Source: Tetradesmus obliquus
Lineage: Eukaryota; Chlorophyta; Chlorophyceae; Sphaeropleales; Scenedesmaceae
Direction of reading: 5' to 3'
DNA: 64,000 bases
Assembly (NCBI GenBank): GCA_030272155.1
Contig: CP126193.1
Coordinates: forward strand, 2,480,001-2,544,000
Shown: positions 1,274 through 58,525 of the stretch, piece after piece
How the letters are laid out: the number at the start of each line of letters is the position of its first letter
How positions within the stretch are numbered: the stretch's first letter is position 1
Notes under the pieces: model-generated
What the model was told of the DNA's origin: nothing
Databases searched by the model: none
The model's input: the letters and a program-made list of their open reading frames with translations, nothing else
Made by a program: the position numbers and the translations under genes

Positions 1274-1310
<37 letters not shown>

Positions 1311-3987: not shown

Positions 3988-4165
3988 CGGGGGTGTTTGT
4001 TTGTGAGCGGAGCTGTGGCAGCAGCTGTGGCAGCAGCAGCTGGTGAGCAGCATCCTGGCAAGTACAGCAGCCCTAATTGTTTGTTGCAAGCTGTTCAGCA
4101 GCTGTGGCAGCAACTGCGACAGCAGCAGCTGGGCATGCGCAACTAGCGGGGTGTTTGTTTGGGAA
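3950..4165 (+). repeat. Degenerate tandem echoes of the 3' end of the first gene
   Basis: The last codons, the stop and the following bases (cagctggtgagcagcat...ctgggcatgcgcagctagcgg) recur in decayed form at about 4030-4065 and 4120-4165. The second echo repeats the stop and the downstream ggtgtttgttt. This is the same kind of local duplication as the intron echoes, here at a gene end. Confidence 0.7.
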
Positions 4166-5598: not shown

Positions 5599-5768
5599 TC
5601 AAGCCCAGATGCCAAGCGCGCACATTGCGCCAGCACCCAGCACCACTGCCAGGTACATGCAGAAGCGCAGGCCGGGCCGCACGGTGAGGTCTCCCTTGCT
5701 GAACTCCTCTGCCAGCAGCTGGTTGAGGCCGATGTACAGCAGCATGCCGCCTGCAGAAACAGAGACAT

Positions 5769-5809
<41 letters not shown>

Positions 5810-6220
5810 GCCCGTGTCAGATAATGAGCGATGAGCTGGAAGAGGCCGATGTACAGCAGCATGCCGCCTGCAGAAGAAACAACATAACAGCAGCAGCAGC
5901 AACGGCAGCGGCAGCAGCGGCAGCAGCAGCAGCACACGTTACATGGTCGACTAATGACGAGAGGTGTGGTGCCTTGTCCATTGTCCTTGCTGCTGACCCT
6001 CAGCGGTACTGCCAGCTGTGCATTGCCCCTGGACAGCAGCGGCACTGCCAGCAGTGAGCTGGCTCGACAGCTGCCAACATGCATATCGGGTGGTCCGACA
6101 TTCCGCCTTGCAAAGCAACGATACACACCTGACACGCCGTTGAGGCCGCCCTGCACGGCGCGGTTGGTGAGGCTGGTGGCGTCGTAGGTTGAGGCGATGG
6201 TGATGCCGATGGCAATGCCT

Positions 6221-6253
<33 letters not shown>

Positions 6254-7971: not shown

Positions 7972-8621
7972 CTTGACTCCTCCGCCAGATTAATTTGAGG
8001 AAGTTTAATTTTGGCAACACTTCACAACAAATACAGCAAATGTCGTGCCTAGGTGCAGTGCTTGCTGTGTACTGGCGTCCGCGCGTTTCGAGTTACACCA
8101 GCGGCAGCGACAGCTGGAGTCGTCGAATATGATACTTTAACTACTATGAGTGTGGTAGAAGACGGCTGCTGTCAGCTACAAAGCCCCCAAAGTGTTCGGG
8201 GCAGTGATTACCGCACTTTCGAAAAGTAACCCCCAGTGACCGATGGCGCACCCTGCAACAGTAGCAGTACTCTCAAACGCGTTTACATGAAGTTTCAGGT
8301 ATGATTAAAGGACGGAGCCGTTAATACAGGCATTGACGTGCACCGGTCTCGCTTGAAAGGACACGCCCTGCTCAAGGCAACAACTGCAGTAAGAGCCGGT
8401 ATAAAAGAATAGCAGGCGACACGCATTGCAGTAGCCGGTCAAAATGATCGAATGCACAGTTACAGCTCACCAAACTAGGCGATCCAAGCCTGAGCACGTG
8501 GCATGGCACGTGTCACCCAGCTGTGCCAAGCACTGCAGCAGGCAGCCACAGCATGCACACAACACACTGACGCTCCTGCGTCCCTGCAACCCAAAAGAGC
8601 ACACACAAACACAGAAACCGC
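7972..8621. other. Spacer: ZIP 5' flank and HARS 3' UTR
   Basis: This 650-base spacer separates the ZIP start from the HARS stop, both on the minus strand. No exon is visible. A minus-strand TGTAA at 8460-8464 probably ends HARS. The remaining about 490 bases should hold the ZIP promoter. Confidence 0.55.
8460..8464 (-). terminator. Candidate TGTAA poly(A) signal of HARS (left copy)
   Basis: TTACA on the plus strand, 158 bases past the HARS stop codon. The same site occurs in the right copy at 42783-42787. Confidence 0.5.
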
Positions 8622-11600
8622 TCATGCTAGCTGGTCCACGGGCACCTCTGTCTGCTCACGTGAAGCCAGATCCTTCACAGCCACAGCACCCCGCTCCCAC
8701 TCCCCGCCGCCAACAAGCAGCAGCCGTGCAGCGCCGCTGCGCTCAGCATGCTTGAAGGCCCACTTCATCTTCTTGGCTTCCAAAATAACATCCACGCGGC
8801 GGCCGGCGGCACGCAGGCGGGCTGCGATGCCGCAGGCTGCGGGCCGCAAGCTCTCGTCCATCACCATGATGACGTCATCCACCTGCAGCAGCACAGCCAG
8901 TGATTGTGCAATTACTCGCTCCAGTAATTGTGCATTCACTCCTGAATATTGTATAAATTCGTCCTTTGACAGTCAGCCGCCGCCGTCAGTAGCAGCAGCA
9001 ACTCAACAGGGACACTCACTCATGTCAACGCATGAAATGCAATTGCTGCAGTGCAAACTACCATCAATCCAATGCCAACTATTCATACCACAAGCAGCAC
9101 TTGCAGCATCATGGTGACAGCAGAAAGCACACCAACAGCACCAGCAACGCCACTTAATAGGAAAAAACATGTACCTACCTGCTGAGTCAGCGCTGGCAGC
9201 TGAGGCTTATCCTTCCGCAGCTCCACAAATACAGCATCACCAACGCCATATAAACCATTTGAAACACAATCAGCACTGGCAGCATGACAGCAGAAAGCAC
9301 ACCAACAGCACCAGCAACACCTCGTTCTGGCACCCACCTGCTGAGTCAGCGCTGGCAGCAGCTGCTTGTCCTTCAGCAGCTCCACAATGACTGCATCACC
9401 AAAGCCAAAGCCAGCACAGGGCACGTCCTCGCCGCCGAATGTGCCCAGCAACTTGTCATAACGGCCGCCGCCGCAGATGGCACGCAGCTGCCCTGCCCGG
9501 TCAAAGCCCTCAAAGACAACCCCTGCAGGTGGTTTCAATGAACAAAGGTGCACCTTCAGAATGTGCATCGGTCACTTAGGGGCTGCTGACAGCAAGGGTT
9601 TTGTTGACTGCTGCACTCTTGGTGGTTTGACTGCTGCACTTCGAGGTGGAAGTGAAGCAGGTTGGTGCACAACGGGATGGTGCGGTGAAGTAATGATGGA
9701 TGTGTGCATTTAGATGTCCAGGGGTGAATGACTCAGGGTTGCGCGGGGTGGGTCAACCGCGAGTAAGTGAGCCCGGGCGGCTGCTGCCGCTGCTGGGCGG
9801 TGCCTTGTCCGCTGCCAGGCCCCACGGGGCAAGGGGCTGGAGCAAGGAAGCACCGCGCTGTGTATGCAAAGCATTAGGCCGTATGCTCCAAGCAACGTGG
9901 ACGACTCAGCCACCCGTACCCACCCACCACCGTCACAACCACCTGCAACCATTCATAACAAAACATGACAACATTCATAACAACAAATTACCAAAAACAG
10001 CGCACCTGTGTAGTAGGCCAGGCCGCGCACAACACCAGCATCAGACACCAGCCACTCCTGGAAGCCATACCCAACAACCATGTGTAAGTTTGCACGCATG
10101 AGGCTGCCCAGCAACCACGCTGCCGCTTCCCAACCACCACGCACACAACCCGACCGCTGCCGCTTCCCAGCCACCACTGTCGCAGCACCTGCAACTGTTC
10201 ATAAAAATAACATAACAACAAATCAAAACAAACAGCGCACCTGTGTAGTAGGCCAGGCCGCGCACCACACTAGCATCAAACACCAGCCACTCCTGGAAGC
10301 CATATCCGGCAGCCAGGGCCCACAGCTGCCGCAGGTCGCCCAGTGCGTCGTGGCCAGCAGGGCCTAGCAGCTCCCCTAGCTGGTCCAGGCTGCGGCACGA
10401 CAGCGCCGACAGAATGCCTGCAGTGCACAGAGCATTGCAATAGTTTAATTTCATTAGTCGAGTTTGTTGTTATTAGTTGATACAGGCAGTTGAAGAGGGG
10501 TCCCTACTTTCGGCAGGGCAGCAATGCTGGGCACAAGCACGGCGAGCATCAGAGCGCACAAGCAAGCACACAGAGCAGGAAATGCATAACAACACACCGT
10601 TCGTAACACCTGCCGGCACGGCCGCGCCGCATGCTCACCCTCTGTTGCGTCTGCGCTGACCCCTAGTGCCGCCAGCTCCGCTTCCACCTTGTCACGCGGC
10701 AGCTTCTCAAGCTTGTCCACAATCACACACACCTGCAGGCACGCGCACGCAGCGACAGTGTTCACAGTGAGCACAGTGTGCATAAAGGAGGCCTGTTACA
10801 CTGTGTACGTGGGCGATGGATAGGGTGCAGGAGTTGCTTAGTTCAGGATAAGAGGCCCTGGCTTGTAGGTGCTTGCACCTCCACAACCGCGCCACGCACA
10901 GCTCTCCACCAACACAGTTGACTTTGCCCGATCGCTTACGTGCAACATGCCATCTCTTTGTCAACAAGCTGCGCCTGAGCAGCCGCCGCAGCGCCGCACC
11001 TGTGCAAAGTTCTCGGGCGGCACGCTGTATCGCTCCAGCACCGCCGCCAGCACCTTGCGGCTGGACACCTTGATGCCCACGTCAGCAGCGCTGATGCCCA
11101 CACGGCTGAAGAAGGTGGTGATGGCTGCCAGCAGCTCGGCTTCAGCCTCCACACCTGCCGCAGGTCAAGAAATAACAACATAACACAATGACAACAGGTT
11201 ATGTGCCACGTGGCTGAAGAAGGTGGTGATGGCTGTCAGCAGCGCAGCCTCAGCCTCCACGCCTGCGACAACAAGCAGTACATGGCACAACATGATGTGA
11301 CAATGTAGCCTAAACCTACTTGCTGAGTAAATGAGAAATCACATGTCGGCTGCCAGCAGCTCGGCTTCAGCCTTCACATCTGCGGCAGGCCATGAAATAA
11401 CAACATAACACAACGACAATAGGTTATGTGCCCGCGCGGCTGAAGAAGGTGGTGATGGCTGCCAGCAGCTCAGCCTCAGCCTCCACACCTGCGGCAGGTC
11501 ATGAAATAACAACATAACAAAACAGAGATACGACATTACAGAACAGAGATACGTTATGTGCCCGACAGCCGAAGAAGGTCGTGATGGCAGCCAGCAGCTC

Positions 11601-11891
11601 AGCCTCAGCCTCCAAACCTGCAGCAAAGCCAACACGAAGCAGGGCATGAAAGCCCACAGCGTACAACATAATGCAGAGGTGTAGTGACCATGTCGATCCA
11701 TGTAGGGTACCAGCAGCTCAGCCTCACAATCCACACCGCAAGGAACGTAGGACACATGCGCATGCATTGCGCAACATGCTGCGCTGCGCTGCGTGCCCAC
11801 CTGGCACGCCCACGATGTCCATGTTCCACTGGTAGTGCTCCCGCCGCCTGCCGCGCGTCATGCGCTCGTAGCGCCAGCACTGGCGGCAGCA

Positions 11892-11923
<32 letters not shown>

Positions 11924-13229
11924 CAACACGCAGTCATTCTAATGTTCTGTAAAATCGTGTTGACGGAGAATGCAGCGCAAAGCATGAGCAGCGATGTCCT
12001 GGCATATGCTGCTGCTGTTGCCTTGCCCGAACCTAAGCGACACGTGCTGTTGCTGCCGTTGCACAGTCAGTATGACGATTTGCCTGTAGCATACTTGTCA
12101 CAGCTGTCCAGCCTGCAGCAGCGGCAGCTGCAGTGATGTCCTCGATCCTGCTGTTGTTCCTGTCCTTGCTGCTGCTGCTGCTGCCTGCTCACCTGCCCCA
12201 CTATCCACCACTTTGCAGGCAGTGCCAGGCCCTTGCCCTTGCCCAGCACCAGCCGGGCCAGGCTGGGCGTGATCTCAGGGCGCAGCGCGACACGCCGCCC
12301 ACCCTTGTCCTGCAAGCCAGCAGCAGCAGCAGCAGCAGCAGGACGTGCAGTAGGTTGATGTGCAGCAGCACGCGCAGAGCCACATGTGGTCAAAGGAATG
12401 CATGGCTGTTGCTGGGTGCTGATGCCAATGCCATGCAAGTGCAGTATACATTCAGCAGCTGGAGCACACTGAGGTTGTGCTGTTTGAGCAGATCTGACCA
12501 AGACTGTACGACACTGCTGCAAAGTTCACAGCAGCTTTCACACCTGGAAGTTGTACAGCTGGTCGGTGATCTCCTCTCCCGCTTTCCTGACAAAGAGCTC
12601 CTCGCTTTCTAGCACAGGCACGTCAAACTGCTCAAAGCCAAAGAGCTGCGCAACTGCTGCCCACTCGCCAAACAGCCAGTTGCGCAGGCGCATGTCTTCA
12701 GGGTAGAAGTCACGTGTGCCTGCAGGGCAAGGGGTTGAGCAGAAGTGCAGAACAGGCAGGGCCGTCAGTTGCAGCAGGGTATGCATTCAAAGAGCGTCAT
12801 AGAACCTGGCATGAGTGGGTTTCAGCCAACACAGAGCAGCTAGGGGGCTGAAAGCATGACAAATTCAACATACGCAGCCTTTCAAACGCCGCCACCAATT
12901 GGCATCATTCAGCTGATGCAGCGCATAGTGTACTGCAGGGTAGCCGCTTTGGCACTGATACGGACAGATGATCGCAACGCCTGCTTCCTGTCCATGCAGC
13001 TGCTGAATGGTAGATGTCACAAGAGCAGCCATGTCCGCCACTGCAGCTCTGCAGGCAGGTGCAAGCTAAGGCCTAGCACAGCTAGCTTGCTGCACATTCT
13101 TTTTCTTAGGACCATGGCCAGGCTTGTGTGCCAGTGGCCTGACCAGCACACACCACCAGCCATTTGGTCAATGGGCCATTGGCTGACTGGTTTCTGCTGC
13201 TTACCTCGTGGGGGGCTTGTGTCCACCAT
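8622..13229 (-). CDS. HARS: Histidyl-tRNA synthetase, left copy, 5'-truncated at the duplication edge
   Basis: Exons in coding order 13205-13229 (remnant of exon 2), 12544-12719, 12193-12309, 11801-11879, 11000-11154, 10639-10732, 10241-10417, 9338-9522 and 8622-8882. The enzyme charges tRNA-His. Visible family marks: [13 protein letters not shown] at the start of the catalytic core, [12 protein letters not shown], motif 2 ([19 protein letters not shown]), the histidine-binding RGLAYYTG, motif 3 ([10 protein letters not shown]) and a C-terminal anticodon-binding domain. The break at 13247 falls inside exon 2, removing exon 1, the targeting leader and the original promoter. In the remaining frame the first Met (13229, MVDTSPPRG) would give a leaderless 422-residue enzyme with the core intact; an in-frame stop lies just upstream. 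Whether it is expressed cannot be told. Confidence 0.85.
9179..9250 (-). repeat. Donor-side echo of HARS exon 9
   Basis: About 69 bases repeat the end of exon 9 with a good donor (CAG|GTAGGT). The echo encodes [23 protein letters not shown] against [23 protein letters not shown] in the exon, with no frameshift. The following intron bases (tgctggtgctgttggtgtgc) are repeated too. Period 159 bases. Confidence 0.9.
9712..9861 (-). ncRNA. Intronic H/ACA-type snoRNA, left HARS copy (H box altered)
   Basis: This 148-base unit lies in intron 8 of HARS, sense to the host, and matches the unit in NOC2 intron 3 while the flanking intron sequences do not match. It folds as two hairpins with a hinge. Hairpin 1 has the closing stem GCGGTGC/GCACCGC and an upper stem CCAG-CCCC/GGGG-CTGG. 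Hairpin 2 has ACTC..GGTTG/CAACC..GAGT. The ACA box is three bases from the 3' end. In this copy the hinge reads CCAGCA, so the H-box consensus ANANNA is broken at its first A (base 9796). Confidence 0.7.
10006..10085 (-). repeat. Donor-side echo of HARS exon 8
   Basis: Encodes [23 protein letters not shown], followed by the same donor context (CAG|GTGCG) and intron bases as the real exon end at 10241. Period 235 bases. It keeps frame and carries the histidine-binding motif RGLAYYTG. Confidence 0.9.
11155..11745 (-). repeat. Five acceptor-side echoes of HARS exon 6
   Basis: The start of exon 6 ([18 protein letters not shown] on the minus strand) and its cag acceptor recur with boundaries near 11263, 11380, 11489, 11618 and 11738. 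Periods are about 108-129 bases. The farthest copies are the most decayed. All lie in intron 5 upstream of the functional exon. Confidence 0.9.
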
Positions 13230-13246
13230 CTCTTTGCTGCTTGTGC

Positions 13247-26670: not shown

Positions 26671-28407
26671 ATGGCGAGGACAGCACTGATCGTCCTGGTG
26701 GCGCTGGTAAGTAGTCTATAGCTCTCCTTAGAGGCATTTTCATGGCGTTTGCTGCAAGCAGCACAGCATGGTCACCACTTGTCACTTTCCCACCACTCGA
26801 CAAGTGTGGGCTAGAAGCTGCCAGACCACACGTTCTGCAAGCATCTGCCTTTTAGCACAGCGAAGCCGCGCTGCCTAGTTATCCAAAGCGTGGAGGTTAT
26901 TCATATCAAGCCCCACCACCTGCCAACAGCTCGGCCTCCTTTTTGACACGTCTCAAATCTGCCATGCAGCTGGCATGTGCGGCACTGGCCACTTGCGCTG
27001 CTGAGCAGCAGCAGCCTACTCAGGCCAAGACAGGTGCTTCCCTTGCACACCCAATGCCAGCTCAGCCACTTGACAGCACAGTCAGGGATAGCGAGGACAA
27101 CTTGGTGAAAAGGTGGGGCTTGCCGCAAGCAGAGCGGCGCGGCGCGGCGCGCGCTTGCCAAGTGTGACGTGCACAGTGCAGCTGCTGAAGCAACAGCTGA
27201 TAGCATAGCAACGCTACACTGGCTTGGATTACACCGTCTGCAATAAATTGTTGCAGCATCAACGTCAGCATCTGTCACTGCTGCTAACTGCTGCTTCCCT
27301 TCCGGAGTGCTACGTGGCTTGTGCACAGCATGTCTTGTCATAACGTGTCATTGGTGCACTGCAGAGGTCTGTGGCTTCTGCCAAGATCACCAGCAGCTGC
27401 CACATCAAGCGCACAATCCCTTGGCGGGTTGTATTTGTCCTTATCTCTGCTGCTTTACTCGATCGCAGGGTCGAGAAGCCATTCTTTCCGGGTGGCAGGC
27501 GCATTCTGACGGAGCCAGATGCATTTGGGGCTGCAGGTGAGCAGCTGCAGCACCACACAGCACCCTGATTAGTGCAGCAGCCCTGCAGCCCACACTCTCA
27601 ATGCACAGAAGGCGCAGCCAGTGGCGATGTAGCAGCAGCAGCAGCAGTCAACGCAGCAGTCGCCGTACCCCTGCAATATGCAAACAATCATCAGCCAGGC
27701 AGCGCCATGGGCTTGCTGCATTGCATACCATCATGATGTCTGCTGAGCTGGCATCAACCAAGACCAAGCATGAACTCACTGTTTTTGTTCCTCAAAACTC
27801 CACGCTGCCCCGCGCAGACGACGCCCTGGAAGCCTCCCACGTGCGCAGCCTGGCTCAGGTGACAAAGCCAGGCAAGCCAAAGGAAGCAAAGGTTTCCGAT
27901 GCTGCATCTATTTCTTTCAAGCGCCTGGAGAAAGGCTATGCTGTACAGAGCCAGGGCCGCAAGCTGGCTCAGGTCACCAAGCCAGGCAAGCCAAAGGAAG
28001 CAAAGGTTGCTGATGCTGCGTCGATCTCTTTCAAGCGCCTGGAGAAAGGCTATGCTGTACAGAGCCAGGGCCGCAAGCTGGCTCAGGTCACCAAGCCAGG
28101 CAAGCCAAAGGAAGCAAAGGTTGCTGATGCTGCATCTATTTCTTTCAAGCGCCTGGAGAAAGGCTATGCTGTTCAGAGCCAGGGCCGCAAGCTGGCTCAG
28201 GTCACCAAGCCAGGCAAGCCAAAGGAAGCAAAGGTTGCTGATGCCGCGTCAATCTCTTTCAAGCGCCTGGAGAAGGGCTATGTTGTGCAGAGCCAGGGCC
28301 GCAAGCTGGCACAGACCAAGCCAGGCAAGCCAAAAGAGGCTAAGGTGTCTGATGCTGCATCCATCTCCTTCAAGCGCTTGGAGAAGGGCTATGCTGTGCG
28401 CCCCTAG
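26671..28407 (+). CDS. Secreted tandem-repeat protein with prohormone-like layout
   Basis: Exons 26671-26706, 26970-27112, 27469-27536 and 27818-28407 give 278 residues with closed phase. An alternative exon 27365-27536 also keeps phase but loses most of the signal peptide. The first two exons form a signal peptide (MARTALIVLVALLACAALATCAA). After a spacer comes NLVKR-VEKPFFPGGRR, a peptide bounded by KR and G-RR. Exon 4 encodes five tandem repeats. The standard 38-residue unit is LAQVTKPGKPKEAKVADAA followed by SISFKR-LEKGYAVQSQGRK. Each unit has an internal KR and ends in G-R-K, the amidation plus dibasic-cleavage signal of peptide prohormones; the last ends GYAVRP-stop. I recognise no domain. 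A prepropeptide is my inference. A basic secreted matrix protein is the alternative. Confidence 0.8.
27848..28403 (+). repeat. Five-unit, 114-base in-frame coding repeat
   Basis: Unit starts are near 27847, 27964, 28078, 28192 and 28306. The units are almost identical, with variants Ser/Ala after KV, Ala/Val in GYAV, and one unit lacking a Val codon (LAQ-TKPG). The near-identity of the DNA implies recent expansion or conversion. Confidence 0.97.
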
Positions 28408-34250: not shown

Positions 34251-35596
34251 ATGCTGCACAGAGGAGCTGTACCCAGCACAGTACAGCGGCACACATGCAG
34301 CACTAGCTGTCCACAACAGCAGGGTAGCCTCTTGACTCCTTTTAAACAAACTACGCAGCGCCGGTGTATCGCCCTAGCCAGCAGACAGTCAGATCGCAGC
34401 CTCAGCGAACACGACGGGGGGCTGCTGCGCAAGGCCGTGCTTGCAACAGCTGTGTGTTGCGTGTTTGCGAGTAATGTAGGAGCTGCTCGGGCAGATAGCC
34501 AGAACTGGGTGCCTAGGAGGCACCACAGGCACATAGGCGAGCGCTTCACTGACACTTGGGCAGACAGCATCGTAGAGGTACGTGTAAGGGTCAACAAGGT
34601 CATTTTCAACTCTGTACCTTCCTTTAAAAGCAGTGCCGGAGCTTGCACTGCTAGCTGACAGGCGTATCTTGCTGCTGGACATTCATGCTGTTCAGCAAGA
34701 GCAGCAGCAGGCTCTGCAATGCCATGGTCAGCTGTGTAAGCAGTCCAGCAGCAATGCTGGCTTGTCAGTGTTGTTTTCGTTTGCTTTTGCAGATTGAGCA
34801 GGTCACTTCCTCGCGGGTCAGGGATCTGGAAAAGCAGCTAGAGCAGGAGCGCAAGCGTGCAGACGTGAGCACCGCGTTTGCAGCAGCGTTGAGGCAGTTG
34901 CATGTACCGCTTTCACAGCTTCGTGTGCATTGCTACAGCCATCATATCCGCATGTTTATGCGCTGCTCTGGCCATTTGCTGGTGGCCAGGCTGCATGAGT
35001 AGCAACAAAACCAGCACACGCGGCGTTGTGGTGGCACAGGTTGCGGTGCAAGTGTATTTGCTCGCAACAGCCCGACTCCCATAAACTGCTACAGCAATCT
35101 GTCGTCGCTGACTGATGTTCGTCGCTACCTGTGCATGTGTGTCTGCTGTGCAGTCAGAAGCCAGCAAGCGGCGAGAGGCTGAGCAGAAGTTCAAGCTGCT
35201 CAGTTTGCAGCAGGTGCGATGCTGCTGCAGCAGCAGCAGCAGCAGCAGCGGTAGCACAGCGATAGCGCAGCATGCGTCGCGTTGCAATGGCGGTGCACGC
35301 CGTCAAACTAGTTGCAGCAGCAGCGCATTGCTCAACGCATGTACTGCAAGTAACCTGCAGGCCGCAGCTGTGCGCAGCAAGCATTACAGCTGTGATTTGC
35401 TGTACTTATGCCATCACACGCAGCTCCGTTATGCTAGCCAGCTCCGGATGCAAACATATGCTGCCCCAGCAAAGCAGTTGCCGCGCTGCTGCTGCTGCTT
35501 CAGCCAGCCACTCTTCCTCTTGTTCTGTCTGACCCTTGATCACTCTCCTTCACCCCTGCTGCGCTTGTCTGTGCTGCTTATCTGCTTCCACAATCA

Positions 35597-35633
<37 letters not shown>

Positions 35634-38310
35634 CAGAAGTCAGCGCGGCCTGCAGACGATGACACGTGGCTCAGCATCAAGGTGGCTGGCGCAGACGTGA
35701 CAGGGCCCCTGGCCTTTGCGCTGCTGTTTGGCGGCATCTACGCAGCCTGGAGCAGCAGCAATGAAGCCAAGGCGCGGCAGCAGCAGGGCAGATGGGTGTA
35801 TGACCGCGGCCTGGGAGGCAAGAAGGTGAAGAGAGTCTGCTGCAGCTGCTGTATTTAAGTACTTGCAAGCTGCAGATGGCCATCATCAGCTGCGGGCATG
35901 CCAAGCAACAGCATGGCAGCATGCAGTGCTGAATTGCTTAGTTGCTTACATGCTTAGGTGCTTGGTGCCTGGTTCACTTGGTGCCCGTGTATGCTTGCTG
36001 CTGGTGTGTGCATGCAAGTCAACACGTTCTCTGAGTTGTACGCCCGCTGCTGCGTGCGCGTGTTGTGCTTGGTGCAGGTGTGGGTGCCGTACAAGACAGG
36101 CGCAGCAGCAGGCAGCAGCGACCTGCCGGAGCAGCTGTCTGATGCCGCCTTTGAGGAGCTCACCAGCAAGGCAGCAGGCCTGGCAGCAGAGCAGCGACGG
36201 AAGGAGCAGCCCTACCAGCCACCCAGCTGGTGAGCTTGCTGCTGCTGCTGCTGCTGTACTCTGCAACAAGTTGTCGGCGAGGAGTGTGGGCTGAAGCAAC
36301 ACATTGCTCCTAATGAAGCAAACGGCATGTGCATTGTGTCTGTAGCCGAGCAAATGGCGGGTGTCCTGCGCTGCAGCTGCCTGTGATGCACGCTCTGAAC
36401 ACTTGTTGTGCCACTGCGCAGGCTGGCCTGCAGTCATGCGTGGCTTTGTGTCCAGCAATCAGCTATGCATGCAGCATTCTGTTCTGCTGGATGGCTCAGC
36501 GACGCTATATGCCCATGCCTCACACGCTGCGCTGCTGCTGCTGCTGCTGCTGCTGCTGTGTGCCAGGTGGCAGGCGCCCATGAGCTTTGCAGCAGACGAC
36601 GCCACGCGTGCAGCAGCGCAGATGCAAGCTAGCGCGCTGCTGGCGCGCATAGAGCAGGCAAAGAACAGGGGCGAGGATTACAAGATCAGCGACATTGCGC
36701 TGCTGCGCCGTATCTGCCAGGCTGGCGGCGGCGTGACAGTGGACACGCGCACCGTGGGCGGGCGGGACGCCATTTATAAGGGAGCAGTGGAAGCAGCGAT
36801 GCGCAGGTGGGTTGTTGCTTGGCTGCTGTGGAAACGCGTGACTGGGGCTGGTGCAGCACAGTGCAGCGTAGACAACCGACTGGAGTTAGTGGTAGGGATG
36901 TTTTGAGCTAGTGCGCGAGTGTTGTTCTCTGCTGGTCGACAGGCTGATTGCACAGCTTGATTGTTGCACGTGAACAGGTACTTGCTGTGTAGCGTGTTGC
37001 AATCCTGCCTCGCCTCTCGTCTAAGCATTCCTTTATGCATGTTCCCAATACAACACCTCTGTGATGTTGCAGGTGCCTGGAGCCGATCAGTGTGGACGAG
37101 GCCGACCTGGCTGAGGAGGCCTCGCTGCAGTTTCCCCACAACATGTCAATACTCAACACGGCTGCCTTTCTCAGCGCATGATCTATCACACAACCACGTC
37201 ATCTAATGCACAACCCCGTATCATGCACGTCTTCGCAGGTGCCTGGAGCCCAGCAGTGTGGACGAGGCCGACCTGGCTGAGGAGGCCCCGCTGGCTTTCA
37301 CATTTTACATATCCCGACAGTCTGCCTTTGTCAGTGCAGCGACAACATAACCATCCTTATTCTGCACGTCTTCGCAGGTGCCTGGAGCCCAGCAGTGTGG
37401 ACGAGGCCGACCTGGCTGAGGAGGCGCCGCTGGCGTTGCACTTCCATCATCCGAATGTGTCTGCCACATCAGCATCATAAGTATCTTTCTCCTTCTGCGT
37501 GCAGGTGCCTGGAGCCGAGCAGTGTGGATGAGGCCGATCTGGCCGATGTGAGCCCGCTGGCGTTTGTGGCGGGCGTGGCGCAGGACGTGCAGATCCCCGA
37601 CGAGCGCGCCGTGAGCCTGGCCGCAAACTGGGTGGCGGGCGCGTGCAGGGCGCGCGTGGTGGAGGTGCGCTGCACATTGTGTATGTTGTGGCGCTGCGTT
37701 GAGATGGATGTGTCTGACGGTGCTTCAAGGCTTCATGGCAGCCAGCAGGGGGCAGTGCTGTGCGTGCGCTGCCATGGTGCATGCTTGATTGTGCTGCGAC
37801 TTGCTACACGCACACGCATGATGCAGCTGCCTGAGCTGTGGTCTGGCGGGAGGGATGCCTGCGGTGTCTGGCAAGAGGCTGCGGCAATTGTCAGCATGGT
37901 GCTGGTTGCTTTCAATTTGCCAGCGAGCCAGTTCTGTGTTGCTGTTGTACCCTTGGTGGGCAGCACTCTGCAATCACTTGTCACTATCTGCCTGCGCTGC
38001 CATGCACTGCTGTGCAACTGCTTGCTGCTGCTGCCCTGCAATACATTGCCTTCGCTGCTCCTACCAGGCCTACACCGCTGCCAAGAAGGGCGACGACGTG
38101 CTGTGCGCGACAGCCCTAGCGCAGCTGTCAAGCCTGCTGCAGGGCATGCCAGTGTTAGAGGCAGGCAGCAGCCAGGTGGGCCTCATCTCAGATGAACTGA
38201 AGGGCTGGGCTGATGGCGAGACGCTGCAGCGGCTGTACGGCCTGGCGATGCAGCTGGTGGAGCCGCAGCAGCAGCAGCTGGTGAGCAGCATGCTGGGCAT
38301 GCGCAGCTAG
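34251..38310 (+). CDS. Chloroplast-targeted membrane protein of unknown function, right copy (complete)
   Basis: Exons 34251-34577, 34793-34864, 35154-35213, 35634-35825, 36078-36229, 36567-36806, 37505-37664 and 38068-38310 give 481 residues. Start ATG at 34251 opens MLHRGAVPSTVQRHTCS, a basic Ser/Thr-rich leader. The hydrophobic segment AVLATAVCCVFASNVGAARA (about residues 63-82) suggests a second targeting step or an anchor. The membrane segment in exon 4 sits near residue 180, followed by DRGLGGKKVWVPYKTG. C-terminal exons carry SVDEADLADVSPLAFVAG, IPDERAVSLAANWVAG and a Leu-rich helical end (MQLVEPQQQQLVSSMLGM). The sequence from 34324 on equals the left copy. The first 73 bases of exon 1 lie outside the visible duplication. 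Function unknown. Confidence 0.8.
37073..37504 (+). repeat. Exon 7 echoes, right copy
   Basis: Same three echoes as at 2750-3181, with starts at 37073, 37239 and 37378 and the functional exon at 37505. No base difference from the left copy was seen. Confidence 0.9.
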
Positions 38311-39921
38311 CGGGGGTGTTTGTTTGTGAGCGGAGCTGTGGCAGCAGCTGTGGCAGCAGCAGCTGGTGAGCAGCATCCTGGCAAGTACAGCAGCCCTAAT
38401 TGTTTGTTGCAAGCTGTTCAGCAGCTGTGGCAGCAACTGCGACAGCAGCAGCTGGGCATGCGCAACTAGCGGGGTGTTTGTTTGGGAACAGAGCTGTGGC
38501 AGCAGCTGCGGCTGCAGCAGCAGCAGCAGCGCCGCAGCAGCCATGGCAGCAGCTGCGGCTGCAGTTGTGATTGGTCAGCAGCAAGCTGGGCATACGCAGC
38601 TGGCGGAGCTGTTTGGCAGCTGCAGCTGTGGTTTTTGCATAGGCCCTAAGCTGCTGTGGATGACTGGTCGGTGCGTAACGCTGCAGCTGTTCTTGTATAG
38701 GCGGCATGCTGAAGCAGCTCTAGCAGTGTGCTGTGTACCCGTGTGCACAGCAGCAACAGCTGTGCAGTGCTCCTGGTGATGCTGCTTCCTGCTTGCAATG
38801 TTTGCAGACAGCTATGTAAATCAACTGGCTACAAAGTAGATGTGGTGATTGGTTTTCAACCATGAGTATGAGTTTGAGCAACAGTAACTGAAGAATGAAT
38901 GGGAGAGCTTAGCGGGAAGGAACTCTCATTCCCCGGGTTTCTATTGGGCTAGATTACTACTTGCTTGGTGGGCGTTACACAGCAGCATGGTCTACTGTTG
39001 CGCCTTGTCTGACAGAGCACGCACCTCAAGAGCTTACACAGACAGTAGCCGATGCGGAGTTGCCATGCAGTACACAGGCAACCCTGCCTGTTTGGGGAGC
39101 CAATGACAGGCTTATCAGGGCATAAGTACACTTGAAGTTGGGACGCCATTAGCCCAGCCCTTGTCAGCTGTGCTAGATCATGCAAAATTCACAGCGCACA
39201 GATGCACAATTCAAGTAGACCGTATACTGAGGCAACGCTGTCAGGACAAACAGCTGGCCACTGCATTTGAGTGTGTCAGGAACTGCCGACTGTCAGGATT
39301 TGCCTTGCGGCAAAATGAAGTGCTGAAGCCTGTGGTCTTGTCGAGCCGTCAAACCCTAGTCAAACCCTGGTCAAATTCTACAATTGTCAAGTAATACACT
39401 TGGCTTGTCACGCGCTGTTGAGTCGTGAGCCATCAGGCTCCTCTATTGATAACAATCTCTACTCCAAATGGCTGCAGAAACTGCAATACTTGCTAGTAGC
39501 AGCCAGGTGACTGTTTGCGAGTAGGCACTGTGTGTAAAACACATGCACCAACAAGCATCCAGACAACCAAGCGACACCACCCCTGTCCCCTGGTCAAACA
39601 ATCACAACGTGCTGGTTGCTAGGCACAACAACCAATGAGCCCGCCGCAGCACTGCTGGCAGCAGCACGTTGCTGCTGCCGCTTGCTGCCGCTGCTCCCAC
39701 CATGCCCTGCACACCGGCTGCTGCGTCTAACCCCCAAAGCCAACCAGCCCCTCATGCTGCCGCTGCAGCAACACACCCGCTGGCATGGAAACGCACCAAT
39801 CGGCCAGCACTTTATCACTGACTGAATACCTGCGGCTGTGAATCAACACACGCACACATATCATGCACCAACAAACACTAGCTGCAGCCATGGCTTGAGT
39901 ACATCAAATCCATCACCAAAC
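38311..39921. other. Convergent intergenic region, right copy
   Basis: Identical to 3988-5598. Contains the tail echoes (about 38353-38488) and TGTAA at 38815-38819. No exon seen. Confidence 0.6.
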
Positions 39922-40091
39922 TCAAGCCCAGATGCCAAGCGCGCACATTGCGCCAGCACCCAGCACCACTGCCAGGTACATGCAGAAGCGCAGGCCGGGC
40001 CGCACGGTGAGGTCTCCCTTGCTGAACTCCTCTGCCAGCAGCTGGTTGAGGCCGATGTACAGCAGCATGCCGCCTGCAGAAACAGAGACAT

Positions 40092-40132
<41 letters not shown>

Positions 40133-40543
40133 GCCCGTGTCAGATAATGAGCGATGAGCTGGAAGAGGCCGATGTACAGCAGCATGCCGCCTGCAGAAGA
40201 AACAACATAACAGCAGCAGCAGCAACGGCAGCGGCAGCAGCGGCAGCAGCAGCAGCACACGTTACATGGTCGACTAATGACGAGAGGTGTGGTGCCTTGT
40301 CCATTGTCCTTGCTGCTGACCCTCAGCGGTACTGCCAGCTGTGCATTGCCCCTGGACAGCAGCGGCACTGCCAGCAGTGAGCTGGCTCGACAGCTGCCAA
40401 CATGCATATCGGGTGGTCCGACATTCCGCCTTGCAAAGCAACGATACACACCTGACACGCCGTTGAGGCCGCCCTGCACGGCGCGGTTGGTGAGGCTGGT
40501 GGCGTCGTAGGTTGAGGCGATGGTGATGCCGATGGCAATGCCT

Positions 40544-40576
<33 letters not shown>

Positions 40577-42294
40577 CAGTTATAGCAGCAGCAGTATGCA
40601 GACGCTGTGCCAGCGCGTTGTGAGGGGAAGTGAAAGGGACAGATGGTGATGCCAATTGCAATGCCTGCAGAGGCGCATCATTAGTGACCGAAAGTGAGGG
40701 GATGTGGAAGGAAGAGATGGTGGCCCGGCTGAGTGTGGCCGGGGGTGGCGCCAATGCGTGTGCAGCCTCAGCAATAGGGGCGGTGTGCTTGGCTGCAGCT
40801 GCGTCTAACGGCTTGCTGCTACACCTGCCTGAACAGCACACGAACAAAGCAATCTCCACCCAGCCATGCAACTGCTGCGAGTGCTGCGCTGTGCTGCTGT
40901 TGCCCCAGGCACCCACCTGCAGGCGTTGTCACGCTGTACACAAACAGCATCAGCACCTTCTTGAGGGTCGAGAAGCTGGTCAGGGCCAGCACAGAGCCCA
41001 GAGCCAAACCCTCCAGGCCCTGATGGATTGCCAGTGCCGTAATCAGTGTCAGCACCAGCTGCTTGTCCCCCGTTATAACCCCCACGCCGATGCCGATAAT
41101 AACACTGTGGAAGATGCAGCCGAGCTCCATCGTGACAGCAGTGACACCCTGCCTGATCGTCTTCATCTTCGTTGCTGCTTCTGACACATTCTCTGAGGAG
41201 CTGCTGTGAATGCGGTGGCAGTGGAAATCGGCTCCCTTTTTAGGGGTCGAGTTTGAGTGATGCTCTGTGCTTGTGACAGCGCAGGTACTGGAGTCCTTAT
41301 CCTCCTCCTCCTGCTCTTGAAGCTCGTTCCTGTATGACTCGGGGGCCAGTATGCCTGCAAGAGTGCTGTCAAGGATGACCAGCAGCAGGATGCCCGCCAG
41401 GATGGCGCAGCCGCCGACAGGCACTGGGAACTTCAGCGGCAGCCCATCAAGCTGCTCCAGCGCCTGCGGGCAGCACAACAGCACAGGACCCAGGTTAAGA
41501 ACTAATTCAACATGTGAACATGTGAAGTGCGCAGGTTGGAGAATGGCTGCGGTATGCCATCACGTGCCTTGCTGTTTTGTACCGGGAAATGGCTGGTTCA
41601 ATAGGTGGCTGCAAACAGCGGTTGCACGCAAAACAGGTTGAGCCTTGCAGTGTGGTGCTGCTTCCTGCCATGTGCTCAAAAGCTGCCGAGTGCGCTGCTG
41701 GACACTAAAGCAGCAGCGTACAGCAGCATGCTGGCGCGGCAGGAAGTCTGTCCCACCTCAGGCACGATGTGCACCAGCGCCAGCGCTGTGATGACACCTC
41801 CGCTGAATGCGCGCAGCAGCCGCGGCACCACTGTGTTGGTGCTCCTGAACCAAAGGGTGATCAAGCTGCACATGGAAGCTGCAAAGATGACAAACAGCCC
41901 AGCCACCCTGCAGCATGACAGCACACAAGTGCAGACGGCAGTGTCTCAGCTGTCTGCTGATGTGGTCTTGATGGTGACACGCATTCCGTCAGCTGTACCA
42001 TTCTGCACAGACCTAGGTCTAATGTGAGTATGGCGAAGGAGCTCTGTCAGCAATGCTGATGCCCTGCCAGTGTTGTAGGTGCCTTACTGCCAGTGCAGCA
42101 GGCAGGCCGCTGCTCCTGCTGCTGCTGCTCTTCTGCACTGCCTGCAGCTGGGTTGCATGCTCAAGCTGGTATCCATACATAGCGAGTGGCTGTTACCTGA
42201 GCTCCCAGCCGGCTGACATCAGCGGATGTCCCCCAGCATTCGCGCCCTCCTGCTGGTGCGCATGGACGTGCTCGAGTCCAAGGAGCAGCCGCAT
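39922..42294 (-). CDS. ZIP-family metal transporter, right copy
   Basis: Exons in coding order 42197-42294, 41757-41907, 40917-41463, 40452-40541 and 39922-40073; 345 residues. The translations of all five exons equal the left copy, including the TM4 HSVIIG, TM5 HQGLEG and TM6 TTPAGG signatures and the His-containing loop. If both copies are real, transporter dosage is doubled. The exon 5 and exon 4 echoes recur at about 40150-40213 and 40642-40673. Confidence 0.9.
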
Positions 42295-42944
42295 CTTGAC
42301 TCCTCCGCCAGATTAATTTGAGGAAGTTTAATTTTGGCAACACTTCACAACAAATACAGCAAATGTCGTGCCTAGGTGCAGTGCTTGCTGTGTACTGGCG
42401 TCCGCGCGTTTCGAGTTACACCAGCGGCAGCGACAGCTGGAGTCGTCGAATATGATACTTTAACTACTATGAGTGTGGTAGAAGACGGCTGCTGTCAGCT
42501 ACAAAGCCCCCAAAGTGTTCGGGGCAGTGATTACCGCACTTTCGAAAAGTAACCCCCAGTGACCGATGGCGCACCCTGCAACAGTAGCAGTACTCTCAAA
42601 CGCGTTTACATGAAGTTTCAGGTATGATTAAAGGACGGAGCCGTTAATACAGGCATTGACGTGCACCGGTCTCGCTTGAAAGGACACGCCCTGCTCAAGG
42701 CAACAACTGCAGTAAGAGCCGGTATAAAAGAATAGCAGGCGACACGCATTGCAGTAGCCGGTCAAAATGATCGAATGCACAGTTACAGCTCACCAAACTA
42801 GGCGATCCAAGCCTGAGCACGTGGCATGGCACGTGTCACCCAGCTGTGCCAAGCACTGCAGCAGGCAGCCACAGCATGCACACAACACACTGACGCTCCT
42901 GCGTCCCTGCAACCCAAAAGAGCACACACAAACACAGAAACCGC
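42295..42944. other. Spacer: ZIP 5' flank and HARS 3' UTR, right copy
   Basis: Identical to 7972-8621, with the minus-strand TGTAA at 42783-42787. No exon seen. Confidence 0.55.
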
Positions 42945-45900
42945 TCATGCTAGCTGGTCCACGGGCACCTCTGTCTGCTCACGTGAAGCCAGATCCTTCA
43001 CAGCCACAGCACCCCGCTCCCACTCCCCGCCGCCAACAAGCAGCAGCCGTGCAGCGCCGCTGCGCTCAGCATGCTTGAAGGCCCACTTCATCTTCTTGGC
43101 TTCCAAAATAACATCCACGCGGCGGCCGGCGGCACGCAGGCGGGCTGCGATGCCGCAGGCTGCGGGCCGCAAGCTCTCGTCCATCACCATGATGACGTCA
43201 TCCACCTGCAGCAGCACAGCCAGTGATTGTGCAATTACTCGCTCCAGTAATTGTGCATTCACTCCTGAATATTGTATAAATTCGTCCTTTGACAGTCAGC
43301 CGCCGCCGTCAGTAGCAGCAGCAACTCAACAGGGACACTCACTCATGTCAACGCATGAAATGCAATTGCTGCAGTGCAAACTACCATCAATCCAATGCCA
43401 ACTATTCATACCACAAGCAGCACTTGCAGCATCATGGTGACAGCAGAAAGCACACCAACAGCACCAGCAACGCCACTTAATAGGAAAAAACATGTACCTA
43501 CCTGCTGAGTCAGCGCTGGCAGCTGAGGCTTATCCTTCCGCAGCTCCACAAATACAGCATCACCAACGCCATATAAACCATTTGAAACACAATCAGCACT
43601 GGCAGCATGACAGCAGAAAGCACACCAACAGCACCAGCAACACCTCGTTCTGGCACCCACCTGCTGAGTCAGCGCTGGCAGCAGCTGCTTGTCCTTCAGC
43701 AGCTCCACAATGACTGCATCACCAAAGCCAAAGCCAGCACAGGGCACGTCCTCGCCGCCGAATGTGCCCAGCAACTTGTCATAACGGCCGCCGCCGCAGA
43801 TGGCACGCAGCTGCCCTGCCCGGTCAAAGCCCTCAAAGACAACCCCTGCAGGTGGTTTCAATGAACAAAGGTGCACCTTCAGAATGTGCATCGGTCACTT
43901 AGGGGCTGCTGACAGCAAGGGTTTTGTTGACTGCTGCACTCTTGGTGGTTTGACTGCTGCACTTCGAGGTGGAAGTGAAGCAGGTTGGTGCACAACGGGA
44001 TGGTGCGGTGAAGTAATGATGGATGTGTGCATTTAGATGTCCAGGGGTGAATGACTCAGGGTTGCGCGGGGTGGGTCAACCGCGAGTAAGTGAGCCCGGG
44101 CGGCTGCTGCCGCTGCTGTGCGGTGCCTTGTCCGCTGCCAGGCCCCACGGGGCAAGGGGCTGGAGCAAGGAAGCACCGCGCTGTGTATGCAAAGCATTAG
44201 GCCGTATGCTCCAAGCAACGTGGACGACTCAGCCACCCGTACCCACCCACCACCGTCACAACCACCTGCAACCATTCATAACAAAACATGACAACATTCA
44301 TAACAACAAATTACCAAAAACAGCGCACCTGTGTAGTAGGCCAGGCCGCGCACAACACCAGCATCAGACACCAGCCACTCCTGGAAGCCATACCCAACAA
44401 CCATGTGTAAGTTTGCACGCATGAGGCTGCCCAGCAACCACGCTGCCGCTTCCCAACCACCACGCACACAACCCGACCGCTGCCGCTTCCCAGCCACCAC
44501 TGTCGCAGCACCTGCAACTGTTCATAAAAATAACATAACAACAAATCAAAACAAACAGCGCACCTGTGTAGTAGGCCAGGCCGCGCACCACACTAGCATC
44601 AAACACCAGCCACTCCTGGAAGCCATATCCGGCAGCCAGGGCCCACAGCTGCCGCAGGTCGCCCAGTGCGTCGTGGCCAGCAGGGCCTAGCAGCTCCCCT
44701 AGCTGGTCCAGGCTGCGGCACGACAGCGCCGACAGAATGCCTGCAGTGCACAGAGCATTGCAATAGTTTAATTTCATTAGTCGAGTTTGTTGTTATTAGT
44801 TGATACAGGCAGTTGAAGAGGGGTCCCTACTTTCGGCAGGGCAGCAATGCTGGGCACAAGCACGGCGAGCATCAGAGCGCACAAGCAAGCACACAGAGCA
44901 GGAAATGCATAACAACACACCGTTCGTAACACCTGCCGGCACGGCCGCGCCGCATGCTCACCCTCTGTTGCGTCTGCGCTGACCCCTAGTGCCGCCAGCT
45001 CCGCTTCCACCTTGTCACGCGGCAGCTTCTCAAGCTTGTCCACAATCACACACACCTGCAGGCACGCGCACGCAGCGACAGTGTTCACAGTGAGCACAGT
45101 GTGCATAAAGGAGGCCTGTTACACTGTGTACGTGGGCGATGGATAGGGTGCAGGAGTTGCTTAGTTCAGGATAAGAGGCCCTGGCTTGTAGGTGCTTGCA
45201 CCTCCACAACCGCGCCACGCACAGCTCTCCACCAACACAGTTGACTTTGCCCGATCGCTTACGTGCAACATGCCATCTCTTTGTCAACAAGCTGCGCCTG
45301 AGCAGCCGCCGCAGCGCCGCACCTGTGCAAAGTTCTCGGGCGGCACGCTGTATCGCTCCAGCACCGCCGCCAGCACCTTGCGGCTGGACACCTTGATGCC
45401 CACGTCAGCAGCGCTGATGCCCACACGGCTGAAGAAGGTGGTGATGGCTGCCAGCAGCTCGGCTTCAGCCTCCACACCTGCCGCAGGTCAAGAAATAACA
45501 ACATAACACAATGACAACAGGTTATGTGCCACGTGGCTGAAGAAGGTGGTGATGGCTGTCAGCAGCGCAGCCTCAGCCTCCACGCCTGCGACAACAAGCA
45601 GTACATGGCACAACATGATGTGACAATGTAGCCTAAACCTACTTGCTGAGTAAATGAGAAATCACATGTCGGCTGCCAGCAGCTCGGCTTCAGCCTTCAC
45701 ATCTGCGGCAGGCCATGAAATAACAACATAACACAACGACAATAGGTTATGTGCCCGCGCGGCTGAAGAAGGTGGTGATGGCTGCCAGCAGCTCAGCCTC
45801 AGCCTCCACACCTGCGGCAGGTCATGAAATAACAACATAACAAAACAGAGATACGACATTACAGAACAGAGATACGTTATGTGCCCGACAGCCGAAGAAG

Positions 45901-46214
45901 GTCGTGATGGCAGCCAGCAGCTCAGCCTCAGCCTCCAAACCTGCAGCAAAGCCAACACGAAGCAGGGCATGAAAGCCCACAGCGTACAACATAATGCAGA
46001 GGTGTAGTGACCATGTCGATCCATGTAGGGTACCAGCAGCTCAGCCTCACAATCCACACCGCAAGGAACGTAGGACACATGCGCATGCATTGCGCAACAT
46101 GCTGCGCTGCGCTGCGTGCCCACCTGGCACGCCCACGATGTCCATGTTCCACTGGTAGTGCTCCCGCCGCCTGCCGCGCGTCATGCGCTCGTAGCGCCAG
46201 CACTGGCGGCAGCA

Positions 46215-46246
<32 letters not shown>

Positions 46247-48043
46247 CAACACGCAGTCATTCTAATGTTCTGTAAAATCGTGTTGACGGAGAATGCAGCG
46301 CAAAGCATGAGCAGCGATGTCCTGGCATATGCTGCTGCTGTTGCCTTGCCCGAACCTAAGCGACACGTGCTGTTGCTGCCGTTGCACAGTCAGTATGACG
46401 ATTTGCCTGTAGCATACTTGTCACAGCTGTCCAGCCTGCAGCAGCGGCAGCTGCAGTGATGTCCTCGATCCTGCTGTTGTTCCTGTCCTTGCTGCTGCTG
46501 CTGCTGCCTGCTCACCTGCCCCACTATCCACCACTTTGCAGGCAGTGCCAGGCCCTTGCCCTTGCCCAGCACCAGCCGGGCCAGGCTGGGCGTGATCTCA
46601 GGGCGCAGCGCGACACGCCGCCCACCCTTGTCCTGCAAGCCAGCAGCAGCAGCAGCAGCAGCAGGACGTGCAGTAGGTTGATGTGCAGCAGCACGCGCAG
46701 AGCCACATGTGGTCAAAGGAATGCATGGCTGTTGCTGGGTGCTGATGCCAATGCCATGCAAGTGCAGTATACATTCAGCAGCTGGAGCACACTGAGGTTG
46801 TGCTGTTTGAGCAGATCTGACCAAGACTGTACGACACTGCTGCAAAGTTCACAGCAGCTTTCACACCTGGAAGTTGTACAGCTGGTCGGTGATCTCCTCT
46901 CCCGCTTTCCTGACAAAGAGCTCCTCGCTTTCTAGCACAGGCACGTCAAACTGCTCAAAGCCAAAGAGCTGCGCAACTGCTGCCCACTCGCCAAACAGCC
47001 AGTTGCGCAGGCGCATGTCTTCAGGGTAGAAGTCACGTGTGCCTGCAGGGCAAGGGGTTGAGCAGAAGTGCAGAACAGGCAGGGCCGTCAGTTGCAGCAG
47101 GGTATGCATTCAAAGAGCGTCATAGAACCTGGCATGAGTGGGTTTCAGCCAACACAGAGCAGCTAGGGGGCTGAAAGCATGACAAATTCAACATACGCAG
47201 CCTTTCAAACGCCGCCACCAATTGGCATCATTCAGCTGATGCAGCGCATAGTGTACTGCAGGGTAGCCGCTTTGGCACTGATACGGACAGATGATCGCAA
47301 CGCCTGCTTCCTGTCCATGCAGCTGCTGAATGGTAGATGTCACAAGAGCAGCCATGTCCGCCACTGCAGCTCTGCAGGCAGGTGCAAGCTAAGGCCTAGC
47401 ACAGCTAGCTTGCTGCACATTCTTTTTCTTAGGACCATGGCCAGGCTTGTGTGCCAGTGGCCTGACCAGCACACACCACCAGCCATTTGGTCAATGGGCC
47501 ATTGGCTGACTGGTTTCTGCTGCTTACCTCGTGGGGGGCTTGTGTCCACCATCTCTTTGCTGCTTGTGCGTGGCCCTGCTGCCCCGACCTTGCGCTGCTG
47601 TGCTTGCTGCTGTGTGCCAGTGCCATCCGGGCTGCTACTCTGCTGTTGCTGCTGTACTGCTGCTGCTGTTGCCTCTTGGTCAGCCTACACAGCAACACGT
47701 TAGTTAGATGTGATGCAATATTTCTTGTTGAAGGAACGCAACCATCTGGGACCACCAGCTGGCGCAAATTTCAGAGTTATTGGTGTGCTGAACAACAGCA
47801 GCAAGCATATGGCCTCAATACCAGCAGCAATTTGCATGCTACCGTCACAGCCAGTATGCGTAAATGCGGACATTGAGGTTAAGCAGTGCTTCAAGCCATG
47901 TATTCGCGCACCTGTGACACTGCAGAAGTAATTGCCCGGTGCAACCTGACTGGTCTACTGCTTTGTGATAGCCTGGCCACCAGCTGCGTGGAGCTGCGCA
48001 GCCCGGCCAGAGAAGCTGGCGAGCGCGTCAGCTGCCCCAACAT
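42945..48043 (-). CDS. HARS: Histidyl-tRNA synthetase with organelle-targeting leader, right copy (complete)
   Basis: Ten exons in coding order: 47912-48043, 47528-47684, 46867-47042, 46516-46632, 46124-46202, 45323-45477, 44962-45055, 44564-44740, 43661-43845 and 42945-43205; 510 residues, frame closed. Exon 1 encodes a 44-residue Arg/Ser-rich, acid-free leader ([20 protein letters not shown] and on), typical of mitochondrial or plastid import. Exon 2 is Gln/Ala-rich linker ending [13 protein letters not shown]. The class II core follows (motifs 2 and 3: RRREHYQWN and [18 protein letters not shown] for histidine) with the anticodon-binding domain from [11 protein letters not shown] to VPVDQLA. 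The internal Met at 47552, just before the core, could give a cytosolic form. Divergent from NOC2. Intron 8 carries the snoRNA. Confidence 0.95.
43502..43573 (-). repeat. HARS exon 9 donor-side echo, right copy
   Basis: Same as 9179-9250. Confidence 0.9.
44035..44184 (-). ncRNA. Intronic H/ACA-type snoRNA, right HARS copy (canonical H box)
   Basis: Sense to HARS in intron 8. The hinge reads ACAGCA (ANANNA consensus) because base 44119 is T on the plus strand. The 14 bases from the hairpin 1 upper stem to the H box (ggacaaggcaccgc) match the usual pocket-to-box spacing. The ACA box is followed by three bases. It differs from the NOC2 copy at a single position, at the foot of the hairpin 1 pocket. 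Target not predicted. Confidence 0.75.
44329..44408 (-). repeat. HARS exon 8 donor-side echo, right copy
   Basis: Same as 10006-10085. Confidence 0.9.
45478..46068 (-). repeat. HARS exon 6 acceptor-side echoes, right copy
   Basis: Same five-echo array as 11155-11745. Confidence 0.9.
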
Positions 48044-58251: not shown

Positions 58252-58525
58252 GTGTGTGGGTCCTGTAATGGAAGGTGCGTTGCCTCGCTCACAGGTCCAC
58301 TGGCCTGAGGCAGCGCACCAGGTTGTGTTGTGGTGTGTAGTCTTGTGTGGGTCCTTTACTAGAAGGTGAGTTGCCTCGCTCACAGGTCCACTTGGCCTGA
58401 GGCAGCGCACCATGTTTTGTGGTGTTGGGTTGCCTTTGTGTGGATCCTTCACTAAAAGGTGCGTTGCCTCGTACACCGGTCCATCACCTGAGGCAGCGCA
58501 CCACGTTTTGTTGTGTGTTGTTCCT
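58252..58525 (+). repeat. Three-unit tandem array, 91-93 bases
   Basis: Units contain gttgcctcgctcacaggtcc and cctgaggcagcgcacca, with starts at 58279, 58370 and 58463. The array ends directly before the acceptor of the exon at 58531. Confidence 0.9.

Follow-up and report, generated by a model that had tools for sequence, protein, structure and literature searches.

The gene at positions 26671-28407 on the plus strand of the window (the whole stretch of 64,000 nucleotides of Tetradesmus obliquus DNA that was analysed) encodes a repeat protein that we tentatively assign, with a probability of about 0.4, to a family of secreted, basic precursors built of repeats and specific to its lineage, which would be cut near R-x-L or dibasic junctions into peptides of the cell wall or extracellular matrix. 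This reading is favoured over that of an uncut structural protein and over that of an amidated prohormone, the latter having been proposed in the earlier note on this DNA. Since related genes keep the part of the repeat taken for a spacer and not the part taken for a hormone, a wall or matrix precursor appears at least as likely as a peptide hormone. The observations concerned are the gene structure, the repeats, their low dN/dS, a set of weak dispersed relatives, a core shared with these relatives, a tail that is not shared and the R-x-L motif.

Gene structure and constraint in the repeat array

The four exons are joined through GT-AG introns with the reading frame preserved and encode 278 amino acids, as the earlier note had described. 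Exon 1 (26671..26706) carries the start codon and the first half of a signal-peptide-like stretch (MARTALIVLVAL), and exon 2 (26970..27112) the remainder of this stretch, an acidic N-terminal region and NLVK(R). Exon 3 (27469..27536) encodes VEKPFFPGGRRILTEPDAFGA(A), which includes GGRR (27491-27502) and the R-x-L motif RIL (27500-27508), so that NLVKR-VEKPFFPG-GRR is indeed present upstream of the array. Exon 4 (27818..28407) encodes DDALEASHVRS, then the array of five units and the stop codon. The claimed signal peptide stands as a prediction by eye, with the relatives on contigs C1 and C9 starting alike. Residues 24-93 are acidic (pI 5.16), and the protein past residue 23 has a pI of 10.16.

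The array (27850-28404; TRF period 114, 4.8 copies, score 900) contains five near-identical units, of which four have the 38 residues previously given for all of them and the last has 33, with one V fewer and an AVRP end. Unit 1 (27850..27963) has KR at 27919-27924 and GRK at 27955-27963, and the same two sites are present in units 2 (27964..28077), 3 (28078..28191) and 4 (28192..28305), the last of which carries the variant LEKGYVVQSQ. Unit 5 (28306..28407, including the stop codon) has the KR without GRK and ends in LEKGYAVRP. The internal KR in 5/5 units, the G-RK in 4/5 and the peptide copies (LEKGYAVQSQ three times, LEKGYVVQSQ once) are thus as claimed.

With regard to database homologues, the matches listed among about 5.8 billion proteins comprise at least one T. 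obliquus protein and two metagenome fragments, the protein searches having yielded at least one match (E up to 0.1), three (E up to 10) and at least one (E up to 10); with such matches the family looks lineage-specific. The best match listed is A0A383V5T5, a separately predicted T. obliquus protein of 192 amino acids and three units, whose joins between exons 2, 3 and 4 match those of the focal gene. Its start lies inside focal intron 1, and exon 1 is therefore backed not by this protein but by the paralog on C1, which has the same 36-base first exon. Apart from the start and the number of units, three residue differences were seen by eye, which turn the first KR into TR and EKPFFPG into EKAFFTG. 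One partial metagenome protein has two units and keeps KR and GRK; the other covers a portion of exon 2 and keeps KR. A0A383V5T5 presumably comes from T. obliquus strain UTEX 393. The paper on the UTEX 393 genome names no protein (PMC5255914). No description of the protein was found among the papers listed for peptide signalling in algae, the genomes of T. obliquus, KEPs and silaffins. None of 25 pattern matches in viral contigs was confirmed. The scan of the focal protein against Pfam gave no match over the cut-off, and matches below it to eight families (E≤1, best 6.9e-6) were set aside, as they look compositional.

The repeats go far past what chance would give, and their units differ little at the protein level. 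Between units, dN is 0-0.078 and dS 0.16-1.01, and the unit looks to be held by purifying selection, with the qualification that recent copying between units would lower dN and dS too. The residue changes are one S/A in the 25-residue first half and one A/V in the second; unit 5 also has a V deleted and its end altered. The putative spacer of 25 residues is as constrained between units as the putative peptide. Furthermore, the number of dibasic sites is not beyond chance and matches the composition, as a unit has two against a mean of 1.94 in shuffled units. A G-basic-basic motif arises in 15.7% of shuffled units (p 0.157), in 4.6% of shuffled N-terminal regions (p 0.046) and in both together in 0.7% of shuffles (p 0.007), and a stretch of 4-20 residues flanked by basic pairs and ending in G-basic-basic in 6.8%. 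Counting the five units as independent support for the processing sites was rejected, because the units are copies and amount to one observation.

These figures count in favour of a structural protein of the wall or matrix that stays uncut and in which the basic pairs would be part of a Lys/Arg-rich repeat, a reading that we consider possible but rather unlikely. It would explain a dibasic number equal to the compositional expectation and a constraint that is even over the whole unit. It would also fit the variation in unit number (five in the window, three in A0A383V5T5, two in the metagenome fragment), for which short-read collapse could also account by lowering the counts. Against it, the junctions carry R-x-L or a dibasic, and the acidic stretch at the N-terminus, with GGRRIL after it, has the look of a pro-part. 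Structural support is also lacking, as AlphaFold models of the five-unit array made without an alignment disagree (best mean pLDDT 68.6, others 51.8-32.7, pTM 0.47) and Foldseek returned no PDB match at E≤0.001 for them, with 10 matches at E≤10.

Genomic copies and dispersed relatives

In its own genome (104.66 Mb, 17 contigs) the gene is present five times, all on contig 3 and within 226 kb. The four exons are exact across the five copies, including the 36-base exon 1, which is identical in 5/5. In copy 2, intron 1 carries an insertion of 39 bases, placed after the base that corresponds to window position 26765, and the first 16 of these repeat the 16 downstream of the insertion. The copies lie in matching stretches of 13.5-65.7 kb with 99.98-100% identity (C3:2305894-2531711), and the window itself contains a segmental repeat (1-13246 and 34324-47569). 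The five copies may stem from recent amplification or from an artefact of the assembly. Among ten neighbouring ORFs that were scanned, three matched, namely two pieces of a ZIP transporter (one below the cut-off) and Noc2, with no peptide-processing enzyme among them. The ZIP zinc transporter pieces (PF02535) lie at 39925-41559 on the minus strand, with a duplicate at 5602-7236, inside the amplified block, and the Noc2-family gene (PF03715) at 53688-54800 on the plus strand. Other tandem arrays in the window are found at 52372-52683 (128-base units), 58272-58516 (91-base) and 62658-63087 (122-base).

A family search of this one genome, with the junction and two units as query, gave 26 matches, of which 20 were the five known copies and six were new: C1:4410419 (E 0.0026), C6:3713153 (E 0.0115) and, on C9, four sites whose E-values (0.097-0.105) are weak by themselves. 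An extra match was seen at C11:1358717 (E 0.142). A profile search of the 264-kb region and of the other loci that were read found no further member with a convincing score. The C1 paralog has 104 amino acids and a single C-terminal unit, ...ARKLQQNKPNKPASAKSGDSTNLYFKRLEKSFSRQP. The C9 paralog has a 30-base exon 1 and starts with MAKNALICVL|AALLVSECLA (the exon join and exon 2 were read by eye), and each of its units, VKPDKPSEKKVADAASIAFGRLGLRHLLAARPFSSVQTS, is encoded on a 117-base exon or on exons of 30 and 87 bases. At C9:1524001-1529500 each unit corresponds to an exon and the introns are repeated alongside, in genomic repeats of 324 bases. The C6 relative, an open frame of which the repeat part was read, has five units of the form QPAKPAAPKQ.ASLGDTAAAEFARL.GRRL.

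Alignment scores of these units against the focal ones lie 6.2-17.5 standard deviations above shuffles, values that are overstated since the relatives were picked by search. The signal-peptide-like first exon of C1 and C9, the repeat form of C9 and C6 and the invariant columns K, P, P, D, F, R and L in an alignment of eight rows add support to their kinship. The parts of the unit fare differently across the family: in the core, the spacer of the prohormone reading, identity to the focal protein is 11/22 for C1, 16/22 for C9 and 10/22 for C6, while in the tail that would hold the hormone it is 3/8, 0/10 and 0/5. With 10-16 of 22 residues identical in the spacer, this comparison speaks against the claim of an amidated peptide as the conserved product. 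The FKRL shared by the focal protein and C1, both with FKRLEK, corresponds to FGRL in C9 and FARL in C6; overall, KR occurs in two of the four members (focal, C1), G-basic-basic in two (focal, C6) and neither in C9. The earlier note had named homologues that keep the repeats and lose the KR/G-RK sites as evidence against a prohormone. C9 is such a homologue, and C1, with KR and without G-RK, and C6, with G-RR and without KR, are each half of one.

R-x-L is found in all four members (RIL, RSL, RKL; RLL, RKL; RHL; RRL, RQL, member by member), which is suggestive only, as the share of shuffles with at least one R-x-L runs from 11% (focal unit) to 52% (C1). The first focal junction, HVRSLAQ, with HVRS upstream of unit 1, keeps R-x-L-A-Q as R-S-L and has no dibasic. 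The kept element of the junctions may thus be an L after a basic residue and not the basic pair, which is suggestive and not proof.

Under the favoured reading of a secreted wall or matrix precursor, the signal peptide would direct the protein into the secretory pathway and the acidic N-terminal region would serve as a pro-part. The basic array would then be cleaved near the unit junctions, at the R-x-L present in the four members examined and sometimes at a dibasic too. Cleavage would release cationic blocks, the working module being the core common to the family, which in the focal protein reads KPxKP...K.xDAAS..FxRL, and fragments beginning or ending at R-x-L would contain KPGKPKEAKVADAASISF. 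Such blocks would most likely work outside the cell, as peptides of the wall or matrix with an affinity for polyanions or mineral. Several points count against this reading. R-x-L is short and often arises by chance, the E-values on C9 are weak, and C6 lacks KXXK. Furthermore, the FKRLEK kept in C1 favours KR there.

Amidation machinery and the prohormone reading

In the prohormone reading, a subtilisin-like convertase would cut at KR, RK and RR, a carboxypeptidase would remove the basic residues and PAM would form the amide at Gly, to give four LEKGYA/VVQSQ-amides and VEKPFFPG-amide as signals. The calculated [M+H]+ values are 1121.595 for LEKGYAVQSQ-amide, 1149.626 for LEKGYVVQSQ-amide and 919.504 for VEKPFFPG-amide. 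An amidating enzyme is there: a bifunctional PAM on C4, at about 3.114-3.118 Mb, in open pieces joined by hand, matches PAM chains in the PDB with a best E of 5.3e-50, across both the PHM and the PAL part. It keeps the motifs HH, QVHY, HTH, EMC and MPH, which have catalytic roles, with copper-site motifs among those seen in the gene. PF03712 also has matches on C15, C11, C16 and C1, and PF01082 on C11 and C1. At exon level the genome has six matches to M14 carboxypeptidases, a family-level assignment, and 80 to S8 peptidases. Given PAM and M14, amidation is possible in T. obliquus. A kexin-type P domain (P_proprotein, PF01483) gave no match in an exon-by-exon genome search, which a domain split by introns could escape. 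An S8 gene (C3:2576184-2577203), some 68 kb after the last copy, was considered as a linked convertase; as S8 matches are so many, linkage is not claimed. Of its 146 PDB matches, the best 60 are chains of subtilisin type, and neither furin nor kexin is named among these 60. In Chlamydomonas, amidated peptides, one of them chemotactic, are known (PMC6919629), and VLE1 is described as cleaving proGATI (PMC10886904), so that cutting would be conceivable even if a P domain is missing. The amidation motif alone says little, as G(K/R)(K/R) is given for 331 of 771 Chlamydomonas proteins with a signal peptide (PMC6919629, PMC6313938).

We regard this reading as unlikely, a little more so than the uncut protein, and what survives of it is the layout and the machinery. 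A basic-flanked repeated peptide with Gly before the basic pair is found as KR-(10 aa)-G-RK in 4/5 units and as KR-VEKPFFPG-GRR, in a number not above composition. G-RR is present in 5/5 C6 units read, C1 keeps FKRLEK, the two-unit metagenome fragment keeps both sites, and the monobasic FGR of C9, with a last unit ending in Gly, could be amidated. On the other side, conservation within the family is lowest in the hormone segment: where a prohormone would conserve peptide and sites and leave spacers free, the reverse is seen in C1, C9 and C6. C9 lacks both KR and G-basic-basic, A0A383V5T5 has lost the first KR and altered the peptide, units 1 and 5 have no dibasic at one end, the site counts equal the compositional expectation, and the exon-by-exon search found no P-domain convertase.

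Known precursors and significance

The amidated prepropeptides of Chlamydomonas (proGATI, Cre03.g204500, and others) resemble the focal protein in their basic pairs, potential amidation sites and a genomic PAM. By its description, proGATI is set apart by a -GRRR end amidated at the C-terminus and by large domains, where the focal protein has an array of short units. Fungal KEPs, such as the alpha-factor and ustiloxin precursors, resemble it in layout, with a signal peptide, near-identical repeats and a KR per unit. They are defined by a signal peptide, internal repeats and KR/RR sites that give at least four fragments, at least three of them alike (PMC6339444). The focal protein has seven KR/RR sites and a signal-peptide-like start, both by eye, and the repeats; unlike KEPs, it comes from a genome in which no kexin P domain was found exon by exon and from a family with KR in only two of four members.

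Silaffins carry KXXK pairs. The diatom silaffin Sil1p is described as combining a signal peptide and an acidic region with basic repeats, its mature peptides lacking the RRIL/RRNL ends, and RXL is its proposed endopeptidase site (PMC4557024); a second source also mentions RXL and reports KXXK in related diatom proteins (PMC5501833). The focal protein shares a signal-peptide-like start, the acidic region, basic Lys-rich repeats, RRIL and R-x-L with Sil1p, which is a diatom protein of a sequence that differs by eye. The repeats of Siliplant1 (Slp1) of grasses contain a P,K,E-rich block, and P,K,E-rich and RXL domains are said to be needed in silicification proteins, RXL being a feature of these (PMC7709012). 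In the focal protein, KPGKPKEAK is likewise a P,K,E-rich block and contains two KXXK. Slp1 differs in an H,D-rich domain that was not seen by eye in the focal protein. The likeness is compositional only (signal peptide by eye, acidic part, P/K/E-rich basic repeats, RXL), and neither silaffin nor Slp1 was among the listed database matches or over the Pfam cut-off. The focal layout resembles silaffin and Siliplant1 precursors in design, and a relation by descent is not visible in this comparison. Slp1 homologs are reported as not found in Chlorophyta (PMC7709012), which also counts against a matrix reading. It is improbable, in our estimate, that the family consists of independently evolved green-algal wall precursors of silaffin or Siliplant type with units freed at R-x-L, some of which would be PAM-amidated since cutting at G-R-x-L would by coincidence expose Gly at the C-terminus. 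A precursor of cationic antimicrobial or allelopathic peptides, suggested by its basic, Lys-rich units, signal-peptide-like start, multiple units and multiple copies, is less probable still, as no known antimicrobial family matched over the Pfam cut-off.

T. obliquus is an alga studied for biofuels, and the family looks specific to its lineage. Basic repeats of this kind are easily taken for hormone arrays unless paralogs are consulted. If its products are amidated, a multi-copy precursor would extend green-algal peptide signalling past Chlamydomonas. Pediastrum and Hydrodictyon belong to the Sphaeropleales, as does Tetradesmus. If the family is silaffin-like, it would bear on the origin of wall peptides and perhaps of silica deposition in some green algae, and PAM-amidated wall precursors, if true, would join amidation with the building of wall or mineral.
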